The notes below the pieces were generated by a model. The model made no database searches, was not told where the DNA came from, and was given only the letters and a program-made list of their open reading frames with translations. The position numbers were made by a program, and so were the translations under genes. A DNA stretch of 24,954 bases from a virus. The stretch lies in IMG/VR virus record IMGVR_UViG_3300042691_019258, positions 1-24,954 of that record. One strand, written 5' to 3'. Below, piece after piece: positions 12,861 through 22,191 of this stretch (position 1 is the first letter of the stretch; the number at the start of each line of letters is the position of its first letter).

Positions 12861-13790
12861 ATGCCTCCACGCAACCAACAGCCTCCATACTACCAAGACG
12901 AGGAGCCTCTCCCTGTCATGGACAACGGCATGTCGCTTGCCCAGCTCGAGGCTGGTGTGACCGATATGAACGGCGTCCCAGCCTACGAAGACGATCTGTC
13001 GGCGCCGGAAGAAATTCTCAACGATGCGGCGGCAATGGAAGTCCCGGCGACCGGGATGTCTTTTGACTTCGGTTCGCTGCGCGTGCAAAGCCCCGAAGAC
13101 TTCGATGCGCTGCCCGACGAGCAAAAGGAACTTCTTCGCGCCATCAAGCGCGGCATTCAGTTTACTCCCCAAGGCGCTGCCGAGTTTATCCTCAGTCAGC
13201 AAAAGTCACGCATGGAGCAAGACCGCAAGGTGGCCATGATGCAGGCTGACCCAGTTCGCCAAGAGCAGACGCGCAAGCTGAAGACCGAGGCGGATGTGCT
13301 GGAGGAAAACCGCATGAAGGCGATGCGCAAGACCTTTGAGACGGCGTCCTACATGGATGACTTACTGGAAAAGACCAAAACACACCCTGGGCGGCAATAC
13401 GCCACGGGCAAGAGCAGCATCTTGCCGAAGGTTCCCGGCACGGCGCCGGCGGACTTCCAAGTGCTGCTTGACCAGATCGGCGGACAGCAATTCTTGCAGG
13501 CGTTTGAAACGCTCAAGGGCGGCGGCCAGATCACCGAGGTGGAAGGACGCAAGGCGACCGAGGCGATGGCGCGGATGAATCCGCGGCAGAGCGAGGAGGC
13601 ATTCCTGCAGGGCGTCAATGAGTTTCAATCGATCGTGCGTTCCGCCAAGGAGCGCGCCACCGCCAAGATCCAACCCCAAGATTCCCCATCAACGCCGGCC
13701 GCCCAAAGCGCGGCCCCGCGTCAGCGTAAAACAGTAGCAGGAACAACCTACGAAAAAGGAGCTGACGGAAGATGGTACCAAGTTCGCTAG
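12861..13790 (+). CDS. Putative ejection/internal protein with GGGxITEVEG motif (309 aa)
   Basis: The first 100 residues are acidic and proline-containing. Residues about 110-170 form a charged helix (QQKSRMEQDRKVAMMQ, RQEQTRKLKTEADVLEENR). Residues about 195-265 hold a segment I recognise from many phage and prophage internal proteins: ADFQVLLDQIGGQQFLQAF, LKGGGQITEVEGRKATEA, then a Met-Asn-Pro helix. The tail is Pro/Ala-rich and ends in a small basic module, TYEKGADGRWYQVR. Its function in DNA delivery is inferred from family context. The last 19 bp overlap the start of the giant gene, and its coding end contains that gene's AAGGAG. Confidence 0.75.
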   Translation: MPPRNQQPPYYQDEEPLPVMDNGMSLAQLEAGVTDMNGVPAYEDDLSAPEEILNDAAAMEVPATGMSFDFGSLRVQSPEDFDALPDEQKELLRAIKRGIQFTPQGAAEFILSQQKSRMEQDRKVAMMQADPVRQEQTRKLKTEADVLEENRMKAMRKTFETASYMDDLLEKTKTHPGRQYATGKSSILPKVPGTAPADFQVLLDQIGGQQFLQAFETLKGGGQITEVEGRKATEAMARMNPRQSEEAFLQGVNEFQSIVRSAKERATAKIQPQDSPSTPAAQSAAPRQRKTVAGTTYEKGADGRWYQVR

Positions 13791-16700
13791 ACGGATTAAC
13801 CGACGAGCAGCTCGCCGAGCTGGAAGCGCAGCAGGGACAGCCGGAGATCACCACCGGACTGGTGGATCGCCTTGCCGCATCCCCTGCTCCGGCGCAGGGA
13901 TTCACCGACCAGCAGCTTGATGCGCTGCCAGCGCTGGCCTCTACGCCGTTTGCCCGCGAGCGTGGCATTGCCCTGCCGCCCGAGGCGCCCGCGGAGCCGG
14001 AGCCGATGACAGACTATGAGCTGAACCAGCTCGAGGAGGAGAACTACCGCCGCGTGGACTACATCATGCCGCAGGAGGAGTTCCGGCAGTATTGGACGCG
14101 ACGCAAGGAGGAGAACAACGAGGTCGGACGCTTCATTGATGGTGTAGGCCAAGGTGCCGCAGCCATGATTGGCATGCTGCCGCAGGCGGCCAATGAGATC
14201 ACCGATGCGCTGATCACGGGCGTCAAAGATCCGCTGCGCCAAGCTGAACGCAATTTGCAGACCGGCGCGGAGATCGTCCGCAAGGCTGGCATCAACATGG
14301 TGCAGCTCTTCGACTGGGTCGGCAACAAAGCCAATGACACGGCAACCTGGGCGAAGCGCCGCGGACTAAAGCAGCAGGCATTGGCCAAGCGCCTCGAGCA
14401 GGAAGGCAAACTGACCGGCGATGAGCTGCGGGACGCGAACATTATTGCCGCGGCGGCCAGCGAGGCGGATGCGATGGAGCCGACGCCGGTGGAAGAAGAA
14501 GAGGATTTCGACAAGGCTTACGAGCGCTACCAGCGGGAGAAGGCGTTGGAGCAGGAGTTTGCGGGAGTCACTGACTTTCAGATTGGTGCCAGCAGGGTGA
14601 GCGCGCCGGCGGCGACCAAGGAGGCTTACCAGATTACCGACGAGCAGCCTGCGGAGACGCTGTCGATGATCGGCTCCATGGTTGTTGATCCGGTCAATTT
14701 GATCCCGGTCGGTGCGGGCGCGTTGAGCAAGCTGCGCGTGCTTCGCCGTACAGCAACACTCGCCGGCGCCCCACTTCGAGGACTGGAGCGCGTGGCCGAT
14801 GCCACAGCAGACCTCGCCGAGCGCGCAGAGTTCGGCATCAGCAGCCGAGTGCAGGACATCACCGGGCTGACCGCAAAACAGCAGGCAGCGCTTGGTGCCG
14901 GTGTGGCCGGTGCAGCAGTCTATGCGGACGCAGCGGGCGGCGGCGGCAATGTTACCGCGGCAGTCACGGCCATCGGCAGCGTGCTGCCAGGGCTGCGTTA
15001 TGGCGGTGCAATCATCCGCAAGACCGGAGCGGCGGCCGGAGGCGCTGCGACCATCATCCGCGAGGCGGGTGTTGGCGGCATCGGCACGGCGCGAGCGGAG
15101 GCGGCGGCTGACTTGTCGCGCATGACGGCGATCCCTGAGCGCTACCGGAAATACTTTACAGGCTACGTTGACGGCACTGACAGCACACTTAAGCGCGTAG
15201 CGCAGGATGCTGGCAATCCAGAGGCGCTGCGCCGTGTGGCACGCTTTGCCGACCGCGCTGGTGCGACCACAGCGGCCCGTCTGGCTGACGATGTGACGAG
15301 CGGAGCGGTGGCTGCTGGCATTACCGGAGCACCCTTTGCTGCATTGCAGCCGGATGCCGAGCGCGCCGGTGAGGTGCTGGGCGGCATCATGGCCTTGGGC
15401 GGTGTGGCCGGAGTCGCTGGCAGTGTGGCTCGCCGCGGAGCTACGGAAGCTGACGCGGACATCGCCCGCATGATGGCTGACGTGTATGCGGTGGGCGGCA
15501 ATGTGGATGCGTTTTCTGCGCTGCCTCACGCCTCGCTGGACCGCATGGCGGCCATGCAAGGTGTGCTGGCAGGCAAGGTGGATTTTGTTCCTCTCAAGGC
15601 GGACGAATACCGGATGAACAAGGACGTGTCGGCGACCGGCGGCGAGCTGGCCGCAGGACTCTTCCTTGAGAAGGACGCCAACGGACGCGCCCGGGTTTTC
15701 ATCAACCTCGACGCACGCAAGTCGGCTGGTGGCGTGGACGCCATTGCTCCGCATGAGATTGGCCACGCCATCCTGACAAGCAACGTCCTTGATGGGCAGC
15801 CGCGCAATGACCTGCGCAACTTGGTTAACCAGCAATATGGACCGGACGGCGTGACCGCGCGCGGACGCGAGTATGTTGGGCGCTTGGTTGACGCGGACAT
15901 CAACAATGGCACAACCGGCGAGCTGCCACAGGTGCTGACCGAGCAGGAGTTCCGCGACCTTGAGAGCGGCAACAAGTCGGCGGCAGACATTTCCAAGGCG
16001 CGCAAGCTGGAGCCGAGCGAGCGCGAGAGGCTGATTAACGAGCGCTACGAGGAGCTGTCGCAGCGCAGCATTGAGCGTAGCGAAGATGCCCTGGACTGGG
16101 CGCGCGACGAGATCATCGCCGAGACATTTGCCAGCGAGGCGCCGGCCATTGACTTCCGCGCCATCCGCCGCGATGCCGCCTTCCCTCGCCTCGCCGAGTC
16201 TATGCTGGCGACCGGCGGGCGTGTGCTGGAGATGATGGGTGTGCGTTTGGACGGCGGCACCGGCAAGATGCTGGACAATCCGTCCGTCCTCTTCCGCGAC
16301 AACCCGCTCTTCCAAGACCGCATCATGCAAAAGCGGGTGAAGGAATACGTCCGCGCCTACGATCAGTATTTGGTCGGCCTTGAGGAGGCTGGCAGCGCAA
16401 CGCCCCGCGGCGTAGAGCTGGCGCGCAGCAGCCGCCCGGAGGACATGGCGCGCAGCACGCACGTCAAACTGCGGGACGAGGGCCGCGGCGTGTTGGAGAA
16501 CGACTTTCTGTTCCAAAAGCCAGACGGCACCTACGCCTACAAGCCGCAGCCGATCATCAATGCCGCCGAGGCCAACCGCGCAGCGCAGATCAAGACGCTC
16601 TACGATGCGAAGAAGTTTGTGCCGGTCAACTCAACCGAGTTTGGCAAGCGCAAGGTCAACGGACGCGAGGTCATTGGCGGGCCGGTGCTGCCGCCGCAGT

Positions 16701-19700
16701 TTGACCTCTTCACGCAATTCCCGCAGCACGTCCGCCAGTTTGCCCGCGGCATGGAAGCCAGCCGCGCCGAGGGTGGAAGCTGGAACATCGACTACAACGC
16801 CATCGGCACTGGATCGAGCGGACGCTACCGCATCACCAACATGGGCGCCGTGCGTGCCATCCAGCGCGAGACCGTGCCTTTCGGCTGGCAGGTGACCAAG
16901 CAGAACCATTTGCTCGCAGCGTCGCTCGACCTCAACGCCTTCCGCGCGTCTGCCATGAAGGCGATCAACAAGGGCGAGCTGGGCATCTTCAACAACGACA
17001 TGAAGCAGGTGGAGGCCGACTTGAAGACCTACCTCGCCAACCACCGCAACGGAATGCCCGGAGAGGCGACCATCGGACAGCAGAAGCGCGACACGCTGAA
17101 CGGACTCATCGGCACCGGCACCGCCGTGCAGCGCGCCGCCAACCCACTCTACGCCGAACTGAATCCCAAGGGCAGCATCCGCACTTGGCGCATCGACCGC
17201 CTCAACGATGCCCAGCCGAGCGGCCGCACCGGCTACTTCTTCGACTACGACAAGATCAACAACAACCGCATGCCCCAGCAGATCCCGCGGGAGGCTCAGG
17301 GGATGCCGGATGTGGCGATTTCTGGTAGGGGTGATGGGATGCCGGAGCAGTGGGACGCCTATACTGAAAGCCTGCTTGATGACGTGGAGTCATGGGCGAA
17401 CGCGCGTGACACCGGCAGGACTGACTACGACATGCAGGATGTTGTGCAGAGCTTTGTGGACTTCGCCCGCACCAACCCGCAGATAGTCGGCGATGATTTA
17501 GCCAAGGCGTTTTACCGCGCCGAGAAGCCGACAGCGTCCCAGCGGAAGAAGCTCAATGCGGCGCTGGAGAATGTTGGTCAGCCGCCGCGCGCAGCCGCCC
17601 CGCGCGCCCAAGCCATGCCGGACTCCCTTGAGTCCGTTCCCACCGACCAACTCCAACGCCAATACGAGGAGAACCAAGGCTACCTCGGGCTGTCCACCCT
17701 GGGCATGCGTGAGGGCCGTCCGGTGCGTGGCGGCGCCGCGCAGACCCGCGAGCTGCTCCGGCGCAACGAGGCGATCAGCGCAGAGCTGGAGCGCCGCGGC
17801 GTGCGGCAGGAAGATCCGCAGTTGCAGCGGGCGCTGCAGAGGCGTGGGCAGGCGATGCCGGATGCTGAGGTGCAGTCAAAAGCTGCGGAGACATTTGAGC
17901 AGCTCAAGCGGTCGCAATTTATCCCGACAAAGGTTGCTGCGGATGTTGTCGGCGGGTTCCCAGAATATCTTAGGCCGGTTGCGCAGTTCATTACCGACCA
18001 GCGCCAGAAGTTAGCCAACGGCCAGATGACGCGCCGCGACGTGATGAAGGCGTATGTGATGACCGTGGCGTCCCAAGGCTCCGGCGCGCGCGCGGTCGAG
18101 GTCATCGCCAACAACGTGGCCAAGGACGGCATCAAGTTTCGTCCGTCCAAAGATTTCACAACGGCCGACAAGCAGGGCCGCGCGGCAATTCGTCCCGAGG
18201 AGGCTGCAGCGTATTGGCTCGGAACCAACGCTGGCCAGCGGGCGCTCAATAACTTTGAGGCCGGCCGCTTTAGCCCAGACGACTGGAAGGAGCTGGTCGC
18301 CATTCGCAAGGCATACGGCGATGACCGCTTCAACAACCTCGGCGCGTTTAATCCCGACAACATTCGCACGACGGACAAGGTGCTGGCCGACTTAAACGCC
18401 AGCCGCGCGGACACCGTCAAGGTGATGGATGCAGTGCAGCAGCTCCGCGGCATCAAGACGGGCAAGAAGGGATTCATCGCGCACCTGCTCGGCATCGGCG
18501 ACGTGCCGACCATTGATGCGGTCGAGATCAACTTCTGGCTGACCGGCAAGGCCGACATCGGCAAGCTAAACACGCGCAAGGCAACGCTGGCGCGCAGCGT
18601 CAAGGAGTCAATAAGCGACCGGCGCGTTAGCCAAGAGATGTTCCGACGCATCGATCAGCGCATCAATGCGTTGCGCGATGAGGTTCCGGGCGGGGCAGAC
18701 ATTAGCCCGGAGGTGTGGTCGCACGTTATGCACCACTGGCTTTGGGACAAGTCGAAGGGCATCGAGACAACGCATGAGGGCATGTATCGGGCGCAGGCAC
18801 AATTTATGCCGGATGCTGTCGTGGGCGACGAGGGCGGCCCAGTGTGGAGAACGCTGCAAGACGCGCCGGTCATTACGCTAAAGGATCTCAAGGGTCGCAA
18901 GGTATTCGCCGCGTTTGCTGACCTCACTAGCGCCGGCAAGATTTACCGCGGCATTGACTCAAGCGAGATTGCCGTGCCGATTGAAACGCACGGCGGACCG
19001 GAGTGGCCGCTGCTGCAGGCTGAGAAGGTTGGCGAGGAGACCAACGTGTGGTCAAACCAAGGCGCCGGCGTTTCCGCCATCAAGGCGCGTAGGGCCAACG
19101 AGGGCGCCATCATGCTGATTGCGGCAATGGATAAGAACGCGCACGTCAGCAATACTGAGACGGCAACCGCGGTGATTGCCACAAACGCGGCCTATGCACG
19201 CGACGGGCGGATAACGCCCGAGAATTTGGCAACGCTTGACAACTTGGTCCGCGCGGAGATTGAGGATTTCCCGGGCATTGAGTCGCCGAACATCATGGAA
19301 TACGTCAATAAGCTCCCATTTCAAGGAGCCAAGAGCCGCGCGCGTATTGCCGAAATTCTTGAGTCGAAAAAATCGCAGGATCTCGGCGCGGCTAACGTGC
19401 AGAGGATCTTGGATGAAATGAGGTCCGACCAATACGACGGCCTGCGCATTGGCGATGCCGTTCTTGCCATTGAACTTACTCCAGGCGCTCCCGCTGTGAA
19501 GCTCGGCGAGCAGGGAACTCTTAAACATCCTTCGTATCAATATGCCCTGCGCGGGCGCGTGATTGGCCGATTCGCGCGGCCAATTAACATCAGCTCTATT
19601 TTCGACGACTTCTACGCGAAGCGCCGCGCCGAGGGCAAGCCGGAGCTTGGCGACCGCCGCGCCTTCGATTTGGCAAAGCCGGTGCAGGAGATTACCGACA

Positions 19701-20635
19701 CAATTGCATCCCGCATTCCCGGCACGCCATACATGTCGTTCAAGTCGCCGCGGCACGCCCAGCTAATCAACATGGCCAAGGACGGTAAGTGGCGCTCAAC
19801 CGAACAAACAGTTAGGGCCGGCGGCGTATCTCCCGCGGCGTTCATTGACGCGCTTAACGCATCGCCCGCAAAGCTGGCGCTGGATAGATACACGCTGAAG
19901 GGCCTACAGGAAAAGCTCGAGACTAGAGCGATGTCTATTTACCAGCTCGGTGACGCCCAGGTGTTCTTTGGCATCAAGCAGGGCGACCCGGCCTCAGCCT
20001 ATGGGCAAAACCCCACAGCATTTGGCTTCGGCCCGAACGAAAAAACGCTGTCTCTGGTGCTTAACAACGAGCGCAGAACCGGCGGCATGGCTGACGCTAT
20101 TGTTGTGAAAGCGCTGCAGGAGGGCGTGACGGCGCTGGATTGCTTTGCGGTGAAGTCGGAGAAATACCCCAACGGCATGCTTCCATCGCTTTACGAGGCT
20201 TACGGATTTCAGAGCACTGGGTCGCTGCCGTTTGACCCACAGTTTTACAGCAAAACAGAGCTTGCAGATTTGAAGAAATACTGGAAGTCTATTGGTTGGG
20301 ACGAACGCCTCGGCCTGCCAGAGATCGTCCTAATGAAATGGAGGGGAAATAATGAACTCAGAACAAAAAGCCTACGAGAACTTGCTGAGCAAGGTGGACA
20401 GAGTTTTCGGGGAGAAGCTAGACCAATTGTCCGAGACGCAAGAAGCCGTAGTAAATCGACTTCTAACAAACGCAATCAGTCGAAGCGGCGGGCCAGACAA
20501 GGTGACGCTGGCGCAGGTGCAGGGAGTCAAGGAGATGCTGGAGGAGGAGTTCGGCTTAGCGGCGGTTTCTTGAGGGCCTACGACGAGCTGCTGTCCCTGT
20601 CGCCCGACGAACTGCGCAACCTAGGTATTCAATAG
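13772..20635 (+). CDS. Giant polyvalent virion protein with HEIGH zinc metallopeptidase motif (2287 aa)
   Basis: An AAGGAG at 13756-13761 supports the start. It resembles the large polyvalent proteins that podoviruses package and eject. Residues 1-300 are mainly helical. Residues about 300-560 contain several Gly/Ala hydrophobic segments able to insert in a membrane. A zinc-peptidase region follows, with H661-E-I-G-H665 and a downstream E780-x-x-x-E784 candidate for the third ligand. Next comes a segment with WRIDRLNDAQPSGRTGYF. Then there are MPD/MPE-containing linkers (Met at 1178, 1190, 1282, 1362, 1679) separating helical domains. A GGPEWP motif (1741-1746) and a GNAT-like region ending LPSLYEAYGF (about 2092-2190) follow. 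After about residue 2192 the sequence becomes Arg/Ser/Lys/Gly-rich and looks non-coding in this frame, where another gene overlaps. The protein probably acts in the infected cell. Domain names are inference except the HExxH motif. Confidence 0.85.
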   Translation: MVPSSLDGLTDEQLAELEAQQGQPEITTGLVDRLAASPAPAQGFTDQQLDALPALASTPFARERGIALPPEAPAEPEPMTDYELNQLEEENYRRVDYIMPQEEFRQYWTRRKEENNEVGRFIDGVGQGAAAMIGMLPQAANEITDALITGVKDPLRQAERNLQTGAEIVRKAGINMVQLFDWVGNKANDTATWAKRRGLKQQALAKRLEQEGKLTGDELRDANIIAAAASEADAMEPTPVEEEEDFDKAYERYQREKALEQEFAGVTDFQIGASRVSAPAATKEAYQITDEQPAETLSMIGSMVVDPVNLIPVGAGALSKLRVLRRTATLAGAPLRGLERVADATADLAERAEFGISSRVQDITGLTAKQQAALGAGVAGAAVYADAAGGGGNVTAAVTAIGSVLPGLRYGGAIIRKTGAAAGGAATIIREAGVGGIGTARAEAAADLSRMTAIPERYRKYFTGYVDGTDSTLKRVAQDAGNPEALRRVARFADRAGATTAARLADDVTSGAVAAGITGAPFAALQPDAERAGEVLGGIMALGGVAGVAGSVARRGATEADADIARMMADVYAVGGNVDAFSALPHASLDRMAAMQGVLAGKVDFVPLKADEYRMNKDVSATGGELAAGLFLEKDANGRARVFINLDARKSAGGVDAIAPHEIGHAILTSNVLDGQPRNDLRNLVNQQYGPDGVTARGREYVGRLVDADINNGTTGELPQVLTEQEFRDLESGNKSAADISKARKLEPSERERLINERYEELSQRSIERSEDALDWARDEIIAETFASEAPAIDFRAIRRDAAFPRLAESMLATGGRVLEMMGVRLDGGTGKMLDNPSVLFRDNPLFQDRIMQKRVKEYVRAYDQYLVGLEEAGSATPRGVELARSSRPEDMARSTHVKLRDEGRGVLENDFLFQKPDGTYAYKPQPIINAAEANRAAQIKTLYDAKKFVPVNSTEFGKRKVNGREVIGGPVLPPQFDLFTQFPQHVRQFARGMEASRAEGGSWNIDYNAIGTGSSGRYRITNMGAVRAIQRETVPFGWQVTKQNHLLAASLDLNAFRASAMKAINKGELGIFNNDMKQVEADLKTYLANHRNGMPGEATIGQQKRDTLNGLIGTGTAVQRAANPLYAELNPKGSIRTWRIDRLNDAQPSGRTGYFFDYDKINNNRMPQQIPREAQGMPDVAISGRGDGMPEQWDAYTESLLDDVESWANARDTGRTDYDMQDVVQSFVDFARTNPQIVGDDLAKAFYRAEKPTASQRKKLNAALENVGQPPRAAAPRAQAMPDSLESVPTDQLQRQYEENQGYLGLSTLGMREGRPVRGGAAQTRELLRRNEAISAELERRGVRQEDPQLQRALQRRGQAMPDAEVQSKAAETFEQLKRSQFIPTKVAADVVGGFPEYLRPVAQFITDQRQKLANGQMTRRDVMKAYVMTVASQGSGARAVEVIANNVAKDGIKFRPSKDFTTADKQGRAAIRPEEAAAYWLGTNAGQRALNNFEAGRFSPDDWKELVAIRKAYGDDRFNNLGAFNPDNIRTTDKVLADLNASRADTVKVMDAVQQLRGIKTGKKGFIAHLLGIGDVPTIDAVEINFWLTGKADIGKLNTRKATLARSVKESISDRRVSQEMFRRIDQRINALRDEVPGGADISPEVWSHVMHHWLWDKSKGIETTHEGMYRAQAQFMPDAVVGDEGGPVWRTLQDAPVITLKDLKGRKVFAAFADLTSAGKIYRGIDSSEIAVPIETHGGPEWPLLQAEKVGEETNVWSNQGAGVSAIKARRANEGAIMLIAAMDKNAHVSNTETATAVIATNAAYARDGRITPENLATLDNLVRAEIEDFPGIESPNIMEYVNKLPFQGAKSRARIAEILESKKSQDLGAANVQRILDEMRSDQYDGLRIGDAVLAIELTPGAPAVKLGEQGTLKHPSYQYALRGRVIGRFARPINISSIFDDFYAKRRAEGKPELGDRRAFDLAKPVQEITDTIASRIPGTPYMSFKSPRHAQLINMAKDGKWRSTEQTVRAGGVSPAAFIDALNASPAKLALDRYTLKGLQEKLETRAMSIYQLGDAQVFFGIKQGDPASAYGQNPTAFGFGPNEKTLSLVLNNERRTGGMADAIVVKALQEGVTALDCFAVKSEKYPNGMLPSLYEAYGFQSTGSLPFDPQFYSKTELADLKKYWKSIGWDERLGLPEIVLMKWRGNNELRTKSLRELAEQGGQSFRGEARPIVRDARSRSKSTSNKRNQSKRRARQGDAGAGAGSQGDAGGGVRLSGGFLRAYDELLSLSPDELRNLGIQ
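20352..20573 (+). CDS. Small overlapping gene inside the 3' end of the giant gene (73 aa)
   Basis: A strong ribosome binding site, GGAGGGG at 20340-20346, is placed 5 bp before this ATG. The 73-residue product (MNSEQKAYENLLSKVDRVFG..., SETQEAVVNRLLTNAIS, EMLEEEFGLAAVS) is a balanced, helical, acidic protein. In contrast the overlapping part of the giant frame is low-complexity Arg/Ser/Lys/Gly. A TAA in the third frame overlaps this ATG as TAATG, the junction style used elsewhere in this operon. Immediately after its TGA, the giant frame again reads like real protein (LRAYDELLSLSPDELRNLG). The local frame structure may therefore include a frameshift. Function is unknown. Confidence 0.6.
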   Translation: MNSEQKAYENLLSKVDRVFGEKLDQLSETQEAVVNRLLTNAISRSGGPDKVTLAQVQGVKEMLEEEFGLAAVS

Positions 20636-20647
20636 GCGCAAATGCCG

Positions 20648-20676
20648 TTGACAGTCTACGGCGAATTGCGTATAGT
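20648..20676 (+). promoter_or_regulatory. Strong sigma70-type promoter
   Basis: A perfect -35 box TTGACA (20648-20653) is followed by a 17-bp spacer and a near-perfect -10 box TATAGT (20671-20676). Transcription would begin near 20683, after the end of the late operon. It drives the 165-170 nt stretch up to the terminator at 20822-20851. Confidence 0.7.
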
Positions 20677-20682
20677 TTTCTT

Positions 20683-20851
20683 AGCGTTCCGAAAGGAAGA
20701 CCCAACGTGTCGCGCGCGATGCGAAGCCTTGGACAAGCCCTAAGCAGGTGACTTGATTATGGCCCAAGGCAAAGCGCGCCGCTAATCTAATAGCTCATCT
20801 GGCACGTCCAGAAAGAGACTAAGGGTCAGCTACGGCTGGCCCTTTCTTTTT
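20683..20851 (+). ncRNA. Candidate small RNA or micro-peptide transcript
   Basis: The stretch is bounded by the promoter at 20648-20676 and the terminator at 20822-20851, so a short discrete transcript of about 165-170 nt is predicted. It contains no ORF of ordinary size. Two tiny frames exist. A GTG frame at 20707-20751 encodes 14 residues (MSRAMRSLGQALSR) after AGGAAG. An ATG frame at 20759-20785 encodes 8 residues (MAQGKARR) and has AGGTGA at a good distance. It also contains ATCTGGCACGTCCAGA (20797-20812), an inverted repeat matching the putative integrase arm motif. I do not recognise an RNA family. Whether the product is RNA or peptide is open. Confidence 0.4.
20822..20851 (+). terminator. 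Rho-independent terminator with UACG tetraloop
   Basis: The stem AGGGTCAGC / GCTGGCCCT (9 bp with one G-U pair) closes a TACG loop, i.e. the very stable C(UNCG)G type, and is followed by TTCTTTTT. It would end both the short transcript from 20683 and read-through from the late operon before the attachment region. Confidence 0.85.
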
Positions 20852-20897
20852 GCCAGACTCTGCGCCAGAGCGGCAATCGGACACAGTAGGTCGGGAC

Positions 20898-20936
20898 ATT
20901 TTCAGTCCTCTGCTCTGCCAACTGAGCTACCTAGCC
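20898..20936 (-). tRNA. 5' half of a tRNA-Phe(GAA) gene (partial, not functional alone)
   Basis: On the minus strand the sequence reads GGCTAGG (acceptor 5' strand, 20936-20930), TA, a D arm GCTCAGTTGGCAGAGC, A, GAGGA, and the anticodon loop CTGAAAA with GAA anticodon (20903-20901), then T. Identity stops there. The expected 3' anticodon strand, T arm and CCTAGCC acceptor strand are absent. This is a tRNA fragment rather than a gene, probably the identity segment of the attachment site. A perfect 6-bp inverted repeat (CGGGAC 20892-20897, GTCCCG 20940-20945) encloses it. Confidence 0.75.
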
Positions 20937-21084
20937 GAAGTCCCGTTTTCTCTGATGAACAGAGCAAAAGTTTTGATCTGGTGCAATCTGGCTTGATCTG
21001 GTTTGGCCTATTTTTTGTCAAACTACCCGCCAGATTTTGCCAGACACCTTGGCAGGGTTTGACGCCCGTGCTATTGGTTCCGGC

Positions 21085-22191
21085 ATGGACACCACGCACA
21101 AGATCACGGCGGCCGGTCTGACCGGCAAGCTCTACCAAACAACCGACTCGCCGCGGTGGCAGTTTGAGTTCCGGCATCCGCACACCAAGAAGCGACTTCG
21201 CATTTCCACCGGACTGCGCGACTTGATCATGGCCAAGGAGAAGGCCAAGGGCATCCTGGTCGATGCCGGACGCGAGGGCTTGGCGGCGCTGCAAGCGCAT
21301 CAGCAGCGGGCCACGTCGAAGTCGATTGGTGAGGCGATTGACCATTATTTGAAGGTGAGCAAGATCGGCAGCAAGCAGAGCAATGTCAATCGTCTGTTGC
21401 GGCTGCTGCGGGCCACGCTGGGCGGAACGAATGAGCAGGTGCGGGAAAAACCGCTGAGTGTGCTGACGCCGGCGCTGGTGGCCAAGTATCTCGCGGAGTG
21501 GAAGGGCAGCGTCTACACGCTGCGCGGCGTGCTAGTGTCGTCGCGCGCCGTGTTTTGTCATGCGCTTGACTGGGAGGGCTTCCCGCTGCCGGAGTCACTG
21601 GAGAAGTTTGCCAAGACGACCAAGGGCATGCGGGCGCCCTCGCCTACGTTTGAGCGCATTGACCCGAAGGTGCTCGAGGCAATGGACGCAGCAAGCAAGC
21701 AGCGGTCGCCGGCGATACGAAGAGCCTTCCTATTGACTCGCTACTTGGGAATGACGCCGAAGGAATGCTCGCTCTGCCGCAAGGCGTGGATCGAAGCGCG
21801 CAACGACAAGTTCGTCATGGTGGTCATTGAGCGCGACGGCGTGACGCTGAAGACCGGAAGCAAGCGGGGGCGCGCCATGTCGATTCCCGAGTGGATGGCT
21901 GCGGAGCTGCTCGCCGCAGATGACTTCATGGTGGACGGCAAGACGCCCAGCCGCCGGAAGTATTTCATGGACCGGATCTTCAATGCGTTTGTGCGGGAGT
22001 TCTTGCCGGATCGGCGCACGGCAGCCTACGAGCTGCGGCGACAAGCTGGCTCGGACATCCTCAATGCGACTGGGAAGATCAGCGTGGCACAGCACATGCT
22101 CGGACATTCTTCACCGACGACAACCTCGACCTGGTACGCCGTCTACGACCGCGAGGTCGATGTCGCTGCGGTGTGGGACGTGCAACATTAA
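21085..22191 (+). CDS. int: Tyrosine integrase with atypical catalytic residues
   Basis: This is a tyrosine recombinase that would join attP to a tRNA-Phe target. I chose the ATG at 21085 (368 codons); a TTG at 21037 also keeps the frame open, and neither has a Shine-Dalgarno. The N-terminal region has the arm-binding pattern GKLYQTTDSPRWQFEFRHP, then a core-binding helical domain (SIGEAIDHYLKVSKIGSKQSN). In the catalytic domain the usual G-L-R-x-x-E reads GMTPKE, so Thr224 replaces the first Arg. The second box reads YELRR (Tyr315 instead of His, Arg318 kept). LGHSS provides His341 and WY provides the nucleophile Tyr351. The gene is adjacent to the tRNA fragment and arm repeats. The missing first Arg is unusual, so the enzyme could be divergent or impaired. 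Confidence 0.88.
   Translation: MDTTHKITAAGLTGKLYQTTDSPRWQFEFRHPHTKKRLRISTGLRDLIMAKEKAKGILVDAGREGLAALQAHQQRATSKSIGEAIDHYLKVSKIGSKQSNVNRLLRLLRATLGGTNEQVREKPLSVLTPALVAKYLAEWKGSVYTLRGVLVSSRAVFCHALDWEGFPLPESLEKFAKTTKGMRAPSPTFERIDPKVLEAMDAASKQRSPAIRRAFLLTRYLGMTPKECSLCRKAWIEARNDKFVMVVIERDGVTLKTGSKRGRAMSIPEWMAAELLAADDFMVDGKTPSRRKYFMDRIFNAFVREFLPDRRTAAYELRRQAGSDILNATGKISVAQHMLGHSSPTTTSTWYAVYDREVDVAAVWDVQH

Follow-up and report, generated by a model that had tools for sequence, protein, structure and literature searches.

Introduction

Elements that integrate at tRNA genes usually carry the 3' part of the gene: Islander lists 3,760 elements in which a 3' fragment is carried, against 159 for the 5' fragment (PMC4383910). 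The 5'-half layout, at 159 of 3,919 or about 4%, is thus known but uncommon. In islands of the 5'-fragment class, the element brings in the 5' part of the tRNA gene, the host 5' fragment is displaced, and an anticodon-centred crossover is among the listed sites (PMC4383910). The conventional 3'-half attP, as in mycobacteriophages, combines a tyrosine integrase and arm sites with a stretch of identity that lies to the integrase side of the anticodon loop (PMC10865867). The tRNA-dependent lysogeny of Fionnbharth, a type described for actinobacteriophages, also targets a tRNA gene at the anticodon region (PMC10865867). Among the recombinases themselves, IntDes enzymes have a shifted first arginine and a tyrosine in place of the first histidine, and in the CTnDOT integrase a different arginine assumes the first-arginine role; recombinases whose first arginine is relocated thus include active or naturally occurring ones (PMC8138268).

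Here we analyzed a viral DNA of 24,954 nucleotides, hereafter the window. The first-pass annotation had read positions 20797-21085 as an attP built on the 5' half of a tRNA-Phe gene, with arm repeats on both sides, and had called the 5'-half arrangement uncommon and the 3' part usual; the Islander counts agree with this view.

Results

The interpretation of window positions 20797-21085 as an attP built on a tRNA-Phe 5' half is well supported at the sequence level. The core is a block on the minus strand (20898-20936) that corresponds to nucleotides 1-39 of tRNA-Phe(GAA) and is exactly identical to complete host genes. As in the 5'-fragment class, the identity starts at tRNA nucleotide 1 and ends inside the gene; it stops one nucleotide beyond the anticodon loop, so that the earlier claim of a 39-nt identity ending at this loop was borne out. 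The window and the host gene share exactly these 39 nt, and upstream of the gene just 2 nt match. The anticodon loop itself (CTGAAAA, 20899-20905, minus strand) would be the region of strand exchange: in the window phage, its sister phages, and the integrated cousins, identity blocks end 0–5 nt past the loop. The complete 3' half of tRNA-Phe reads CTGAAAATCCTCGTGTC; the phage leader directly before GGCTAGG is GGGACTTC or GGGATTC, and the sequence following the tRNA 5' half on the phage side is TGTCCCGACC or TGCCCCG. ARAGORN found no complete tRNA gene in the 24,954-base window, and an Rfam search of the window gave no match.

Exact search of the viral collection found the half up to the anticodon loop, a 38-mer, in seven other contigs, where sequence unrelated to any tRNA 3' half follows it. 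Compared with the window, the flanks of these contigs are 73–98% identical, whereas the half is 100% identical. Relatives whose integrases are 61–75% identical carry the 5' half of a tRNA-Thr(CGT) or a tRNA-Met-like gene in the same place, and alignment of 15 attP regions revealed common elements to either side of the core. The integrase tree separates Phe-type and Thr-type sequences into two supported groups and places the Met type outside both. The left flank of the Phe-type contig L022 resembles that of the Thr-type contig L015, suggesting that the attP-integrase cassette was swapped between phages.

The core is bracketed by the repeats that the first-pass annotation had noticed. GCCAGA occurs at 20852, 20864, 21029, and 21039, and TCTGGY at 20798, 20977, 20987, and 20997, the latter three at an exact 10-bp period; the eight motifs compare with a mean of 0.36 expected, none of 2,000 dinucleotide shuffles reached eight, and the cluster is the densest region of the window for these motifs. 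The 11-bp direct repeat, TTTTGCCAGAC, is also present as claimed, at 20848 and 21035. On this basis, repeated putative arm sites flank the core on both sides, as in a lambda-type attP. The putative left arm (20848-20869, plus strand) consists of TTTTGCCAGAC and the second GCCAGA, and is kept in Phe- and Thr-type relatives; the block ATCGGACACAG between this arm and the core (20876-20886, plus strand) is largely conserved among the 15 aligned attP regions. On the other side of the core lie a CTCTG...CAGAG inverted repeat (20950-20964, plus strand), the CTCTG of which is conserved in all attP relatives, and two putative right arm clusters. One comprises the three TCTGGY motifs (20977-21002, plus strand) and is partly conserved; the other comprises two GCCAGA motifs 10 bp apart (21029-21045, plus strand) and includes the second TTTTGCCAGAC (21035-21045). 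A terminator-like hairpin with a T-run, which matches the consensus (20821-20850, plus strand), marks the left edge of the attP-integrase cassette, and relatives also have a hairpin at the corresponding position.

Further left, a near-consensus promoter, TTGACA-17-TATAGT, is located just past the late gene (20648-20676, plus strand), with the terminator at 20821-20844. A small RNA candidate delimited by this promoter-like site and the terminator (20648-20844) was rejected: the stretch before approximately 20790 is not conserved in relatives. The open reading frame at 13772-20635 (2,287 aa) had no Pfam match, and two pieces of it, the second in a frame that is not confirmed, had no PHROG match.

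The tyrosine integrase gene (21085-22191, plus strand; PHROG 1, E = 9e-21) is divergent from the tRNA half. Its reading frame opens at TTG 21037; the start codon is most likely ATG 21085, an invariant Met, rather than this TTG. A match to Pfam PF00589 was weak and fell under the cut-off of that family. The predicted model, of moderate confidence (pTM 0.49), matched full-length lambda integrase best, with N-terminal beta strands (4-41) in the position of the lambda arm-binding domain. The PHROG match and the model together suggest a catalytic domain preceded by an N-terminal arm-binding domain, as expected of a lambda-type enzyme. The catalytic set R-K-H-R-H-Y is incomplete in the window clade: the Box I Arg is replaced by Thr (LGMTPKE) and the first catalytic His by Tyr, both invariant in the clade alignment, and we therefore regard the enzyme as a variant rather than a canonical tyrosine recombinase. 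Arg235, a candidate for the role of the missing Box I arginine, is conserved in the window-clade integrase, the reading frames of the clade integrases are intact, and many residues are invariant. Comparison of the integrase with 50,697 phage records gave no match.

The identification of the half as tRNA-Phe was confirmed in genomes. A scan of genome contigs with the 39-mer returned 13 exact matches, each a complete tRNA-Phe gene and all in MAGs. Twelve of these 13 MAGs are titled Verrucomicrobiota or a lineage of it (Spartobacteria, Chthoniobacterales, Chthoniobacteraceae, or Chthoniobacter); the remaining one is titled Akkermansia muciniphila, but its genome came up within the order to which the other 12 belong. 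In three genomes (G003, G004, and G006), the Thr half and the Met half are matched exactly too. The tRNA-Phe motif is single in 15 of 17 putative host genomes, which are drafts and make this copy number provisional. Because the att identity matches a host tRNA gene, we infer that the host is probably a member of Verrucomicrobiota, from freshwater Chthoniobacterales.

The first-pass annotation had pointed to prophages bounded at the anticodon loop as a check. No window-clade lysogen was found among the genomes searched, and integrase alignment against 84,980 genomes yielded no confirmed integrated copy; the cousin integrases found in genomes are 23–28% identical to the window clade where aligned. 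Three of these distant cousins show the predicted layout. In G144, the tRNA-Lys gene is intact with a divergent integrase directly upstream, and a displaced 5' half (exact 38 nt) 45 kb off adjoins DNA similar to the beginning of that integrase gene. In G340, one contig carries an intact tRNA-Ser beside a divergent integrase as well as a phage portal gene; the displaced half, 43 nt long and with a promoter of its own, lies on a second contig that is presumably linked to the first. In G196, 41 nt of tRNA-Thr lie beside a divergent integrase on one contig, and the intact host gene is elsewhere. In all three, identity begins at nucleotide 1 and stops 0–5 nt past the anticodon loop. The rebuilt tRNA with a displaced 5' fragment is seen in the distant cousins G144 and G340, and is absent for the window clade in the searched genomes. 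An empty site was not recovered for G340, the upstream flank of which is not conserved within its family; the gene downstream of its tRNA resembles, by eye, that in G429. Viral scans with the integrases of G144, G196, and G213 gave no match.

Related arrangements were observed in other genomes. The 5'-type tRNA-Lys island of G144 (G144:C58:43755-89100) contains type I restriction genes, a reverse transcriptase, and metabolic genes, and its far end is marked by the second 5' half with a likely integrase-start remnant; the type I restriction and metabolic genes in the intervening DNA indicate an island, not a clear prophage. In G012, a 10-kb insertion (L057; G012:C1; 5678-5728, 5846-5920, 15769-15806) splits tRNA-Thr(CGT) with a common core of just 15 bp, the island's own complete tRNA-Thr(CGT) adjoins the broken 3' half, and the flanks match uninterrupted sites in relatives. 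We considered G012 as a 5'-type island and rejected it, since the full junction consists of the 15-bp core and a complete replacement tRNA, which is a different type. In G289, a 3-kb unit (L126/L128; G289:C19:43915-46971), inside which no integrase was seen, is bounded by a 40-nt tRNA-Ser 5' half. Approximately 68 nt of near-identical upstream DNA is repeated along with this half, and the host promoter region is thus doubled as well.

The carried half also varies. In G213 and G093, related integrases have a tRNA-Lys 3' half directly upstream, codirectional with the integrase, and in G320 the integrase gene follows an intact tRNA-Thr, the 3' end of which points toward it. The carried half is therefore not fixed in the wider integrase family. 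The deep branches of the integrase tree are without resolution and give no direction of orientation change; the near-symmetric anticodon arm may allow orientation flips.

The earlier proposal that the phage supplies both a new 5' half and a new promoter is supported for the half; as to the promoter, none of the 15 window-clade attP sites has a convincing sigma-70-like one upstream of the half. We scored the 60 nt upstream of each tRNA with an approximate E. coli sigma-70 matrix: the window-clade sites (n = 15) scored 1.1–4.5, host tRNA-Thr genes all 10.8, and host tRNA-Phe genes 4.1–9.8. Over 130 nt, the window-clade leaders scored no better than shuffles, and a consensus promoter scan of the attP region found no minus-strand promoter. 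The sequence TACAGAGA near the leader -10 position was set aside as a promoter, because the similar CTCTGTAGAA (in the integrase direction) is also integrase-side in 3'-type sites, where it lies downstream of the tRNA. With the same matrix, the rebuilt tRNA-Ser genes of G340 and G391 scored 10.0 and 12.5 from DNA between the tRNA and the integrase, with TTGCCA-16-TAGTAT and TTGCCA-16-TATTAT, respectively, 19–20 nt upstream of the gene.

Discussion

We propose, with a probability of about 0.85, that this locus serves as attP for a temperate phage whose insertion target is a Verrucomicrobiota tRNA-Phe gene, which is rebuilt with the phage 5' half. A lambda-type tyrosine integrase would bind arm repeats on both sides of the core and catalyze strand exchange within the anticodon loop. 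The native 5' half of the host gene, with its promoter, would thereby move to the far prophage end, and the phage 5' half joined to the host 3' half would give an intact tRNA-Phe with the integrase gene divergent directly upstream, transcribed from within a phage leader of roughly 150 bp. We favor this explanation because of the 39-nt identity, the invariance of the 38-mer among related phages, the Thr and Met halves at the same site in sister phages, the motif cluster, and the 13 putative host genomes with complete tRNA-Phe genes; in addition, G144, G340, and G196 show the predicted anatomy or an attP/host-gene pair. The reading of the site made in the first pass is upheld by the same observations and by the anticodon-loop ends of the identity blocks in the integrated cousins. 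The absence of a window-clade lysogen from the searched genomes, the remoteness of the cousins in which junctions are seen, the clade's lack of the usual Box I arginine, and the lack of a recognizable promoter for the rebuilt gene count against it.

The first and third of these points could also mean that the phage no longer integrates, and that attP and integrase are remnants or act on phage DNA alone. We consider this improbable: the reading frames are intact with many clade-invariant residues, the half has stayed identical to the host gene while the flanks drift, and recombinases in which the first arginine has moved from its usual position are known in active or naturally occurring form (PMC8138268). 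Insertion might instead break tRNA-Phe and leave the lysogen dependent on a complete phage-borne tRNA gene, the logic that the G012 island follows; but the identity in the window spans the whole 5' half, 39 nt instead of a short core, and neither the window nor 19 relative loci, viral records that may be incomplete, yielded a tRNA gene. Searching 17 viral records for a T-arm motif produced two matches only, GGTTCAACTCC, which is unlike the host tRNA-Phe T arm, and such dependence is very unlikely here. Equally slight is the chance that the half is not an att site and represents a transcribed tRNA fragment, a decoy, or a relic of host DNA. A conserved element could in principle be transcribed, and no positive support for this idea was found; the half is invariably located within the repeat cluster next to the integrase, its end is always the anticodon loop, and its tRNA identity switches between phage clades at a fixed place.

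If the gene is rebuilt as we propose, its expression requires explanation. The tRNA-Phe motif is single in most putative hosts, and therefore the rebuilt gene must be expressed; a phage-supplied promoter is plausible by need and is supported in the tRNA-Ser cousins. We lean toward a real leader promoter that takes the place of the host tRNA promoter and is weak or non-consensus when judged against E. coli. The sigma-70-like promoters of G340 and G391 and the doubled upstream DNA of G289 are consistent with it, whereas the low window-clade scores relative to host tRNA genes and the empty minus-strand scan are not. That the 5' half lacks an ordinary promoter altogether, with the lysogen's only tRNA-Phe expressed from the attP-integrase control region, seems doubtful. 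If true, the prophage would control a gene indispensable to the host, and normal expression would return on excision.

Several described systems are close to the window phage under the preferred reading. Like the Islander 5'-fragment islands, it carries the tRNA 5' part; in contrast to them, the displaced host fragment was not found in the genomes searched, and the window clade consists of phages that have three tRNA targets and an integrase subfamily of their own, probably in Verrucomicrobiota (PMC4383910). It shares with the conventional 3'-half attP, including those of G213 and G093, a tyrosine integrase, arm sites (putative here), and an anticodon loop with the identity block on its integrase side, but carries the opposite tRNA half, with the tRNA pointing away from the integrase gene (PMC10865867). 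Unlike Fionnbharth, it carries a full 5' half, and no complete tRNA gene was found (PMC10865867). The G012 island resembles tRNA-dependent lysogeny but sits in Verrucomicrobiota. By description, the integrase shares the lack of a first arginine at the usual place and the His-to-Tyr change with IntDes, described from Desulfovibrio alone (PMC8138268).

The locus represents a group of phages, probably infecting freshwater Verrucomicrobiota, that have a distinct integrase subfamily and retain the uncommon 5'-half layout across three tRNA genes. Our analysis also provides a host prediction for an uncultured phage group. Compared with its distant 3'-half relatives, the window clade is a good place to study the switching of integrase target and orientation on the near-symmetric anticodon arm, and it is also useful for studying promoter replacement by a prophage at a single-copy tRNA gene.
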